In this document: piece by piece, positions 40,403 to 44,307 of the stretch | Layout: every line of letters starts with the position of its first letter | Position numbering within the stretch: the stretch's first letter is position 1 | Made by a program: the position numbers and the translations under genes | Notes under the pieces: model-generated | Seen by the model: the letters and a program-made list of their open reading frames with translations, nothing else | Told to the model about the DNA's origin: nothing | The model's database searches: none | Assembly (NCBI GenBank): GCA_021776295.1 | Contig: JAJFGE010000013.1 | Location: forward strand, 1-64,000 | Length of the DNA stretch: 64,000 bases | Direction of reading: 5' to 3' | DNA from: Hyphococcus sp. | GTDB taxonomy: Bacteria > Pseudomonadota > Alphaproteobacteria > Caulobacterales > Parvularculaceae

Positions 40403-41554
40403 CTAAGCCAGCGGAAAGCTAAAGAACGCCAGCGCCGCCGCCGTCAGGAGTGTTGCCAGAGCAATCATTCGCGCCTTGGTTTTTCGGTGCAGATGCAGCC
40501 CTACCGGAATAAGCAGAAGGTTGGCGATGAGAATAAAGGCTGCATAAGCCATCGTCGGCACAAGTTCGTCGAGAGGAAAGCCGCCGCCCGCGAGCCCTCT
40601 TGCCAGAAACGGCAGCGACACCGCCATATCAATCGACAAAACAAGGCCGATATAGGCTTTGGCGATATCGGACAGCGCGACCTCGCATGTGCGTAAGAAA
40701 CTGATGGCCTTTGTGGTCAACGCAAAGCCGTATTCGCGCCCGGCGATCAAGCCGAGAAACACGAACGTCGTGCTCATGGGAATGGAGTTGAGCTCTTTGA
40801 AGTAGAACAGGAGCGAGGCATATGTGAAGTCGATAATCGTTGCGGAGCGGATGTCGGATACTGCCGTCTTCGATTTCAAAATCCGCTGAACCGGGCCGCC
40901 ATTATTAGCGAAGGTGTAGGCGAGAAGCGCGACGATGGCGAACATCGCGGTAAAGCCTTCGACTGCGGTTATCTCACGCGGGAGAAAAACAAAAATATTG
41001 GCGAAATCCTGGATCAGCCATACCGACCACAAATAACCGGTCGTCATCCATTGCAATAACACCCAGATGGGATGGTGTTGTTGGTGCACCGTCTTTCGAA
41101 AAAACTTCTCAAGTGTATTAGAGGCGATGAGGTAAATCCCAAGGCCGACCGCAAAGGCGAGCCCGTAGCCGATCAGGGATTTTTGCAGCATTGAGGTCAG
41201 GCCGCCGATGGAGGCGAAGACCGTAAGGACCATGAACGAGGTTGAGACCGGAACGCCGAACCGGGTGATGATTAATAGAACCAGCGGTGGCAGCGTATGA
41301 TACCACTGAACTTCGATAGGCGGATATTTGTGGGTGTTGGACAGGCGCCCAAAGGACGGATCCCCGTCATTGATTATCCAGCCATAGGTAAACGTCACCA
41401 CAAGGATGATTGCGGCGAACAGAAACAGCCAGAACCAGTGCAGGCGGTTGTTGGAGCTGATGAAGGTGCCCAGCGTTTGCAGCGCGTCATTGCCGACAAC
41501 GGCGTAGGCGGCAAACAAAAACCCGACAATGGCAAAAAGAGAAATATCGAACAC
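40403..41554 (-). CDS. PiT-like (inorganic phosphate transporter-type) integral membrane protein
   Basis: Polytopic. VVGNDALQTLGTFISSN and TRFGVPVSTSFMVLTVFASIGG resemble PiT GAND and PVSTTH signature regions. Confidence 0.55.
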   Translation of the reverse strand: MFDISLFAIVGFLFAAYAVVGNDALQTLGTFISSNNRLHWFWLFLFAAIILVVTFTYGWIINDGDPSFGRLSNTHKYPPIEVQWYHTLPPLVLLIITRFGVPVSTSFMVLTVFASIGGLTSMLQKSLIGYGLAFAVGLGIYLIASNTLEKFFRKTVHQQHHPIWVLLQWMTTGYLWSVWLIQDFANIFVFLPREITAVEGFTAMFAIVALLAYTFANNGGPVQRILKSKTAVSDIRSATIIDFTYASLLFYFKELNSIPMSTTFVFLGLIAGREYGFALTTKAISFLRTCEVALSDIAKAYIGLVLSIDMAVSLPFLARGLAGGGFPLDELVPTMAYAAFILIANLLLIPVGLHLHRKTKARMIALATLLTAAALAFFSFPLA

Positions 41555-41845: not shown

Positions 41846-43045
41846 ATGTTGTTTAGAATCGCACTTTGGGCAATAGGGGCGGTTATCATATCTGGCCCAG
41901 CGGCTTTGGCGGGCAGTCCCGATAACAACCCGGCCATTGCGCCAGCGCTGTCAGATCTCAAAATCTTCGGCCGTGTTGTCGCTGACTATGCGATTGCAAG
42001 CGGCGAGAATTCCGACTTTGATATCAGCAGCGGCGAGTTGCGCACGGCGCGTATCGGCCTGTCCGGGAAGCTTTACGGCCGGGCAAAGTTTAAAACCGAA
42101 TTGAGCATCGACAATGATGGCGATATCGCCCTGACCGACGCTTATATGGAATATAATATTGGCGGTCCGACGATCCGCGTTGGTCAGTTTAAGACGCCCA
42201 ATTCCTTCAACGAGCAAACATCATCGAAATATACACTCACCCATGAGCGCGCCGCGTTCACCGATGCTTTCAGCCTTAATCGGCGTGTTGGCGTCGCGGT
42301 TCTGGAAAACCGCTACCGCTATAGCTATGCGTTGGGGATATTCGCCCAGAATATTGAAGGTGAGAAGACCTTTGGCGGCTATGCGGTGGCGGGGCGCTTC
42401 ACGCTGGCGCCGGAATTTGGCGTGGAGGGGCTGCAAACCCATTTTGGCGTTTCCGCGCGCTACCGAAAAACCGACAGCGACGGACCGCTCCTTCGCTATC
42501 GCCAGCGGCCGGTCTCCCACATTCCCGGGCGCATTCTGGCGACGGAACGGTTTGCATCGTCAGACGTTTTTATCGGGCTTGAAGCTGCCGCCGCAACGGG
42601 GCGCTTCTGGGCCGCTGGAGAATATGCGCTGACGGTTGCCAGCTGCGATGCCTGTCCCGGCGATGACACGCTTTCCGGCGGCTATATCGAGGCCGGGTTT
42701 ATGGTGAATGGAGAGCCAACGCTCAAAGGCGCGCGGTTTGACCGCCCAAAGGTATTCAGCGGCGTTGATGAAGGCGGGCTTGGCGCCCTGGCCTTGGCGT
42801 TGCGGGCGGACACGATCGATCTTGAAAATGCGCCAACATCCGGCGGCGGCTATAATTCCTATACCATTGGCGCAGATTGGTGGCTGACCGCGCGCATCCG
42901 CCTTGGCGTCAATGGCTACATTATCGACGCCGATCTCGGCGAGACGACTGCGGGGCTGGGTGCGGCTTTTGCAGACGGAGTGCTAGCCGGACTTCGCGAT
43001 GAAACGGTACGCGGCGCCGCGTTTCGGGCGCAGTTCGACTTCTGA
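41846..43045 (+). CDS. Porin of the OprO/OprP (phosphate-selective) type
   Basis: Signal peptide, RTARIGLSGKLYGRAKFKTELSID...DAYMEYNIGGPTIRVGQFKTPNSFNEQTSSKYTLTHERAAFTDAF, C-terminal FRAQFDF. Confidence 0.85.
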   Translation: MLFRIALWAIGAVIISGPAALAGSPDNNPAIAPALSDLKIFGRVVADYAIASGENSDFDISSGELRTARIGLSGKLYGRAKFKTELSIDNDGDIALTDAYMEYNIGGPTIRVGQFKTPNSFNEQTSSKYTLTHERAAFTDAFSLNRRVGVAVLENRYRYSYALGIFAQNIEGEKTFGGYAVAGRFTLAPEFGVEGLQTHFGVSARYRKTDSDGPLLRYRQRPVSHIPGRILATERFASSDVFIGLEAAAATGRFWAAGEYALTVASCDACPGDDTLSGGYIEAGFMVNGEPTLKGARFDRPKVFSGVDEGGLGALALALRADTIDLENAPTSGGGYNSYTIGADWWLTARIRLGVNGYIIDADLGETTAGLGAAFADGVLAGLRDETVRGAAFRAQFDF

Positions 43046-43126
43046 GTGCGACCGGGCAGAAAGCCGCGCACAAAGCGGCGGCGTTATTCCGAAAAGTCAA
43101 AATTGTACGGGAGAGACCAGAGCCGG

Positions 43127-43306
43127 TTATTTGGTGGAGGCGTAGACAGCAGCGTTGCTGCAGCTGGCGCCGAAGCATTCATCAAAAATACCGCCATTTG
43201 AGGCCTGGCCAGAAGACACCGCCATGGGCACCGCCAGCGCAATCGCAAATAACGCGGCAACCACATATAAAAACGGGCGTCTTACACTCTGGCGGGTCTC
43301 ATACAT
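43127..43306 (-). CDS. Small secreted two-cysteine peptide (59 aa), hypothetical
   Basis: My translation: MYETRQSVRRPFLYVVAALFAIALAVPMAVSSGQASNGGIFDECFGASCSNAAVYASTK*. Basic n-region, hydrophobic core, small-residue cleavage region. Below the ORF-track size cutoff. Confidence 0.55.
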   Translation of the reverse strand: MYETRQSVRRPFLYVVAALFAIALAVPMAVSSGQASNGGIFDECFGASCSNAAVYASTK

Positions 43307-43386
43307 AACGCTAACCTGTTCTTTTCTTTTTGTTTTTTACCATTTTCCAGATGTTACACACGAAATGTGACACAAACGATAAAAAA

Positions 43387-43404
43387 CTGTCATTTATCTG
43401 TCAT
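43387..43404 (+). promoter_or_regulatory. Perfect tandem Pho-box-like repeat
   Basis: CTGTCAT-TTAT-CTGTCAT-AAAT: two exact 7-mers with an 11-bp period. Confidence 0.7.
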
Positions 43405-43527
43405 AAATAGCTCGCGGCTGTGTATAAGTCAACAAAAAGCGCAACAGTTGCGCAAAATTAATATAACCATCTGATAAAAATGGAAAATTAGCCTTTACAG
43501 GCAGCGGCTAGCATGGTTATGGGCCGG

Positions 43528-44307
43528 CTAACTCGCCGTATTTACGAGCAAAACAGCTAAAAAAGCCCCGGCGCATAGGCCCGGTCCGAAGGGAATTTCG
43601 GTTTTGGCGTTGATGGTTTTCCCCATTATACGCGCCGAGAGAACGGCCAGAAGTGTCACTATCGACCCGGCCAGAACCGCAACGGGCAAAAACTGCCATC
43701 CGCTCCACGCGCCAATCACCGCCGCCAGTTTTGCATCGCCCTGTCCAAGCCCCTCAACCCCCCTTAGCCATTGAAAAGCCGCACTGATTAACCGAAACAC
43801 CAGATATCCGGCCGCTGCGCCAATGAATGCATCGGCGGTCGGGACAAAATACCCCCCGAGATTGACCGCGAGGCCGAGCGGGATTAGCGGCAGGGTCAAC
43901 ATGTCCGGCAGAAAACCGGTCTCCCAGTCAATCACTGCAAGTGCAACCAGGCACCATCCCAGCGCCGCAGCAAACAGTCCTGCCAGCGTTGCGCCAAAAA
44001 TCAGATAGGCGGCGCCGGCGACACCGATGCCGGCAAATTCAACCAGCGGATATCGCGGGGAAATTTTCACGCTGCATGCCGAACAGCGCCCGCGCTGCAA
44101 CAGGTAACTGACGATTGGGACCATCCGCCAGGCCGGGATCGGACAGCGGCAATGCGGGCAATAAGATCGTGGCGTCAGCAGCGAGCCTCTTGGCGACGCA
44201 TCGTCAACCAGGCCCCACATCGACGGGCTGCGGTGAATGACGACATTCGTAAAACTCCCGATCAGGGAGCCTGCGATTATGACGACGGTCCAATAGAATA
44301 AAGACAA
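43528..44307 (-). CDS. Prepilin peptidase (A24 family)
   Basis: GSLIGSFTNVVIHRSP, CPHCRCPIPAWRMVPIVSYLLQRGRCSACSVKISPRYPLVEF, DWETGFLPDMLTLPLIPLG, GQGDAKLAAVIGAW. Confidence 0.93.
   Translation of the reverse strand: MSLFYWTVVIIAGSLIGSFTNVVIHRSPSMWGLVDDASPRGSLLTPRSYCPHCRCPIPAWRMVPIVSYLLQRGRCSACSVKISPRYPLVEFAGIGVAGAAYLIFGATLAGLFAAALGWCLVALAVIDWETGFLPDMLTLPLIPLGLAVNLGGYFVPTADAFIGAAAGYLVFRLISAAFQWLRGVEGLGQGDAKLAAVIGAWSGWQFLPVAVLAGSIVTLLAVLSARIMGKTINAKTEIPFGPGLCAGAFLAVLLVNTAS

Follow-up and report, generated by a model that had tools for sequence, protein, structure and literature searches.

A conserved microprotein gene of Parvularculaceae with a reversed start-site Pho box lies near a gene for a PiT-like permease

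The window, a 64-kb stretch of Hyphococcus DNA, contains on its minus strand a gene for a 59-aa microprotein that is real and under purifying selection. The product is most likely anchored in the membrane, with its N-terminus inside and its C-terminus outside, rather than secreted as a peptide. Its promoter carries a perfect Pho box. Our tentative overall reading, to which we assign a probability of roughly 45%, is that a bitopic microprotein, made in phosphate-replete conditions and repressed by PhoB, acts as an accessory subunit or regulator that tunes a PiT-like permease. The features that bear on this reading are as follows.

43127 to 43306, minus strand: gene for the 59-aa putative single-pass membrane microprotein, subfamily A (translation, homologues, alignment, dN/dS, hydropathy)
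Residues 1-11 of the microprotein: N-terminus, net positive, charge +2
Residues about 12-30: predicted transmembrane (TM) helix, mean hydropathy 2.53
C-terminal tail: GGIFDECFGASC, with two cysteines
43365 to 43386, minus strand: possible further 11-bp half-sites downstream of the Pho box (aligned upstream regions)
43387 to 43404: Pho box CTGTCATTTATCTGTCAT, matched with 0 mismatches; the coding (minus) strand reads ATGACAGATAAATGACAG and the plus strand CTGTCAT-N4-CTGTCAT
43404 to 43409, minus strand: candidate -10 hexamer TATTTA, 17 nt after TTGACT and touching the Pho box (sequence, aligned promoters)
43428 to 43432, minus strand: -35 element TTGAC (aligned promoters)
43439 to 43453, minus strand: palindromic operator GCGCAACTGTTGCGC (GCGCA-N5-TGCGC; aligned promoters)
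41846 to 43045, plus strand: Porin_O_P (OprP/OprO-type) porin, PF07396 E 6e-36, convergent with the microprotein gene
40403 to 41554, minus strand: PiT-like (remote PHO4-superfamily) permease, a conserved neighbour of subfamily A (distant-homologue profile match, linkage)

The initial annotation had proposed a 59-aa peptide at 43127-43306 and had set it apart from a listed open reading frame at 43084-43266. Both points hold: the translation matches exactly and ends at a stop codon, and the listed frame is a different one. Its interruption in most orthologues rules it out as the true gene. In relatives, the reading frame, the start and the cysteines of the microprotein are all kept. Purifying selection is evident among five close orthologues, with dN/dS between 0.02 and 0.20 and with 144 of 204 pooled differences falling at codon position 3. 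Among the more distant orthologues, most have interruptions in the alternative frames over the gene. Together, conservation and dN/dS rule out a chance open reading frame, and the microprotein is presumably translated.

The family is lineage-restricted. A 60-genome protein search recovered, in the nearest genomes, orthologues with 91-95% identity, and further homologues whose identity falls to about 34% (near relatives are labelled Marinicaulis, a name that NCBI resolves to Hyphococcus). A profile built from 20 homologues finds the family in about 31 of 62 Parvularculaceae genomes; the same search across 289 genomes of the class returned just two weak matches, both within long frames. The alignment shows no variation at M1, Y14, P27, A29, G39 and C44, and almost none at F41, E43 and C49. 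Searches of Pfam (none at E <= 1), NCBIfam and PHROGs gave no family match, which rules out a known small-protein family in these libraries. DUF1127 identity was rejected, the Pfam DUF1127 domain being undetected in the microprotein, as was phage or plasmid cargo, given neither a PHROG nor a plasmid match. A PDB profile search produced matches at chance level only, and a literature search combining Parvularculaceae with 'small protein' found no report. Small membrane proteins under stress regulons are already known as a kind. Neither the present family nor its restriction to one lineage, nor its composite promoter, in which the Pho box is reversed and lies at the presumed start site, is described in the libraries and papers searched.

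The hydropathy profiles place one hydrophobic helix in every homologue, after an N-terminus of 10-30 residues. Three kinds can be distinguished. Subfamily A, the type in the window, has the motif RPxLY...GGIFDECFxxxC; subfamily B is longer at the N-terminus, where it carries GPKT, and continues with FDEC/FEEC...C, and its tail beyond the helix is small or absent; the third kind ends at the helix or within 10 residues of it and has no cysteine. Some helix-only homologues were found solely through their promoter (L140-L142 at the B locus, L114/L115 in another genus). The occurrence of helix-only homologues at the B locus argues that the helix itself is functional. AlphaFold2 predicts a helix at residues 9-33 of the microprotein, at low confidence (pLDDT 57).

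This architecture bears on whether the protein is exported, as the initial annotation supposed in describing a textbook signal peptide. In that improbable reading, signal peptidase I would cleave near residues 33-35 and a disulfide-bonded tail, induced in starvation, would be released into the periplasm or outside. The positive N-terminus, the hydrophobic stretch, a proline before a small-residue region, and a cysteine pair conserved in subfamily A and in many B members fit such a peptide. However, a search across the family found no conserved signal peptidase I or small-X-small site, and the Pho box has an orientation and position unfit for activation by PhoB. Moreover, cleavage would leave nothing of the many homologues that end at or just after the helix. 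What stands of the earlier description is a small protein with one hydrophobic segment and two cysteines conserved in its own subfamily. With the helix as the common part and the cysteine tail optional, membrane anchoring fits better than secretion; in subfamily A alone, cleavage near residues 33-35 may occur.

The promoter is the second conserved element. The repeat that had been described as Pho-box-like, about 80 nt from the start, proves to be a perfect copy that is conserved upstream of homologues. It lies 80 nt before the ATG, and no other zero-mismatch Pho box occurs in the window; when up to 3 mismatches are allowed, 4 matches are found against 2.5 expected. In its own genome, ATGACA-N5-ATGACA occurs three times, twice at copies of the microprotein gene. 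The box recurs 48-130 nt upstream of homologues, with its orientation fixed and its register fixed relative to the TTGAC -35 and the GCGCA-N5-TGCGC palindromes. Matches are strong in most family members and weaker in G003, G016:C58, G021:C10 and G020. Across 402 kb of flanking DNA, matches of at least 12/14 are almost confined to the microprotein promoter, in one orientation, and the box is conserved while other flanking sequence diverges. The possible additional half-sites are degenerate in the window and clearer in some relatives, as TATCAC and TTACAG.

Promoters aligned on the Pho box share a common order, which on the coding strand begins with GCGCA-N5-TGCGC and TTGAC, frequently continues with another GCGCA-N5-TGCGC, and passes through an AT-rich -10 region to ATGACAG-N4-ATGACAG. 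TTGAC precedes the start of the Pho box by 28-31 nt in most family members. At least one exact GCGCA-N5-TGCGC operator is present upstream of 34 of the 37 homologues; the second copy, often between -35 and -10, is lost in the window's clade. Alone, this operator is only modestly above background, and it is informative mainly inside the composite promoter. No known regulator could be assigned to it.

PhoB is the probable ligand of the Pho box. A very improbable alternative is that the repeat serves another OmpR-family response regulator and that the gene is unrelated to phosphate. Regulators of the OmpR family also use 11-bp direct repeats, each genome encodes several PhoB-like regulators scoring below the PhoB cut-off, and phosphate neighbours are absent at the B loci. 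Against this, the heptamer matches the PhoB consensus, CTGTCAT, in every position (PMC3131613, PMC4415409), and the neighbours of subfamily A include PiT-like and OprP-type genes. A true PhoB (TIGR02154) is present above the curated cut-off in 7 of 7 genomes tested, with 347.5 bits in G000, the genome of the window.

If PhoB binds, the geometry of the site suggests the sign of its effect. In PhoB-activated promoters, the Pho box lies upstream and replaces the -35. The box of the microprotein gene is reversed, and lies over the -10/start region or just after the candidate -10, which is weak. A search for strong Pho boxes around phoB loci, intended to calibrate orientation, found none. A parallel is offered by orfA-pit of S. 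meliloti, in which OrfA is a PhoU-like cytoplasmic protein and the microprotein, by comparison, is a TM protein of about 60 aa without a Pfam match. The orfA-pit operon is repressed in phosphate starvation, and its PHO box stands immediately before the translation start, a position that most PhoB-regulated genes of that organism do not share (PMC3131613); pit1 is likewise among the most repressed genes under P stress (PMC8829014). The two systems would share a small accessory gene paired with a low-affinity phosphate permease, a PHO box near the translation start and not ahead of the promoter, and repression in starvation (PMC3131613, PMC8829014). Taken with this parallel, a reversed box over the -10/start region favours repression of the microprotein gene by PhoB in phosphate starvation. 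The suggestion that the gene is phosphate-responsive is therefore upheld in so far as the promoter is phosphate-linked and a response is likely; the position and orientation of the box speak for repression in starvation and not for induction.

The neighbourhood provides the link to transport. An OprP-type porin had been reported next to the microprotein gene, and the PF07396 match bears this out. The accompanying designation 'PiT' is correct as to a PHO4 relationship, which is, however, remote only. The permease at 40403-41554 itself has no match in a PF01384 search; two of its distant homologues do match, with scores of 25.2 and 23.8 bits (E 1e-5 and 2.7e-5) that fall short of the curated cut-off of 33.7. 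On these weak profile matches, 'PiT-like' is the furthest identity supported. The protein, with L199 and L200, represents a divergent PHO4-like branch below the PHO4 cut-off, characterised by the motif GNDxxQTLGTF and by PxST, which occurs twice. AlphaFold2 gave no usable permease model (pLDDT 35), and an hhalign comparison with PHO4, based on only two sequences, was uninformative. A PF01384 search for a standard PHO4 gene found none in G000, G004, G011, G012, G021 or G069. The window resembles known pairings of PiT/PHO4 permeases with an OprP-type porin in that the microprotein gene has a porin of the Porin_O_P type and a remotely PHO4-like permease as neighbours, and differs in that its permease falls below the PHO4 cut-off on a branch of its own.

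In 11 of 12 lineages, with the window's five near-identical copies counted as one, no more than 1.6 kb separates the subfamily A gene from the gene for the PiT-like permease; in the remaining lineage, G010, the contig that carries the subfamily A gene has no permease gene. This linkage survives several rearrangements. A convergent porin may lie between the two genes, a convergent permease may be directly adjacent, the permease may follow on the same strand, or the order may be inverted (G012). In G019, no intact porin is called and the permease is still present. The other neighbours of subfamily A vary between lineages. In G035 and G069, as in orfA-pit, the permease gene comes immediately after the small gene, on the same strand and at operon-like distances of 90 nt and 174 nt respectively; in the window, unlike orfA-pit, the convergent porin intervenes and the two genes do not form an operon. 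The conserved linkage of subfamily A to phosphate genes also weighs against a tightly repressed hydrophobic peptide of the Hok/TisB kind, resembling type I toxins or acting in membrane stress. The small size of the protein, its single predicted TM helix and the several operators over one promoter would suit such a peptide. Its FDEC motif, predicted to be extracytoplasmic, is conserved and under purifying selection, which would not, nor is there a recognised family, and we regard this reading as highly improbable.

The B paralogues behave differently. They are never near the permease where both could be compared, and their neighbours are a membrane dipeptidase (PF01244) or Lon/ClpX-like genes (named by eye). 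Both cysteine-type B and helix-only paralogues share the microprotein promoter, with no PiT-like gene nearby. Another partner, common to all members, is therefore possible.

In the reading we prefer, the permease-tuning one, the microprotein would span the inner membrane with its N-terminus in the cytoplasm and its short cysteine-containing tail in the periplasm. Transcription would start from a sigma-70-type promoter (TTGAC, then the -10), with the PhoB box reversed over the -10/start site and a second regulator on the GCGCA-N5-TGCGC operators. Under phosphate scarcity, PhoB~P would cover the start site and turn the gene off; with ample phosphate, the microprotein would be made. It would then bind and tune a larger membrane protein, for which the linked PiT-like low-affinity permease is the first choice and a putative partner.

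An alternative target would be a sensor kinase (PhoR or another) or the envelope, with the permease linkage reflecting merely shared regulation. DUF1127 proteins are positively charged and are not TM proteins; the microprotein, in contrast, has a TM helix and no DUF1127 match. These very small proteins, among them Agrobacterium SDPs and E. coli YjiS, bind PhoR and tune phosphate uptake in Alphaproteobacteria through protein-protein contact (PMC12501420). Similarly, E. coli YoaI, of 34 aa and controlled by PhoR-PhoB, is reported to act on the EnvZ-OmpR membrane signalling system (PMC11853020). YoaI is shorter than the microprotein and has no known permease linkage, and no family match joins the pair in the libraries used. 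These precedents, and the B paralogues unlinked to the permease under the same promoter, favour the kinase or envelope. The persistence of the subfamily A-permease linkage through several rearrangements and the absence of a detectable DUF1127 domain count against it, and we consider it unlikely, although a serious competitor.

A more elaborate, speculative and rather improbable extension of the permease reading would make the PhoB-repressed family dissociable subunits that gate the divergent PiT-like permease (A) and a second membrane target (B), set jointly by phosphate and by a second regulator whose operator also occurs at a ribonucleotide reductase gene. If so, the second regulator would couple phosphate uptake to DNA synthesis.

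These results indicate that a gene under the usual annotation cut-offs can be recognised through its promoter: here a family of putative single-helix membrane proteins missed by protein databases is marked by its composite promoter, in which the Pho box is reversed and lies at the presumed start site. Should the preferred model be true, marine alphaproteobacteria would offer a small, tractable PhoB-repressed microprotein controlling a low-affinity phosphate permease. The microprotein is a testable candidate for a new player in bacterial phosphate management. The finding also points to a further transcription factor, acting at GCGCA-N5-TGCGC, with sites at ribonucleotide reductase genes as well.

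Several minor observations concern this operator and its surroundings. In many family genomes, GCGCA-N5-TGCGC stands beside a TTAA-N7-TTAA (CtrA-like) box near the start of a putative ribonucleotide reductase large-subunit gene (sites in L136, L137, L139, L144, L146, L147 and L153-L155; Pfam checked in L155 only). In several genomes (L148, L150, L180), it separates two divergent genes, one encoding a prepilin-peptidase-like protein and the other a CTQG-type lipoprotein. In the window, too, the microprotein gene has a prepilin peptidase gene (43528-44307) next to it. At L167 (~1416-1501), the gene for a 118-aa predicted exported protein (MKTIRKILLGVS...), which adjoins a prepilin peptidase gene, has the family's type of promoter, with TTGACA and tandem TGACA repeats; the protein is not of the single-helix type and has no Pfam match. 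Finally, the window's assembly contains a second copy of the whole neighbourhood (L063, G000:C178), with a microprotein 91% identical; this copy probably belongs to a co-binned relative, the contamination of the assembly being estimated at 6%.
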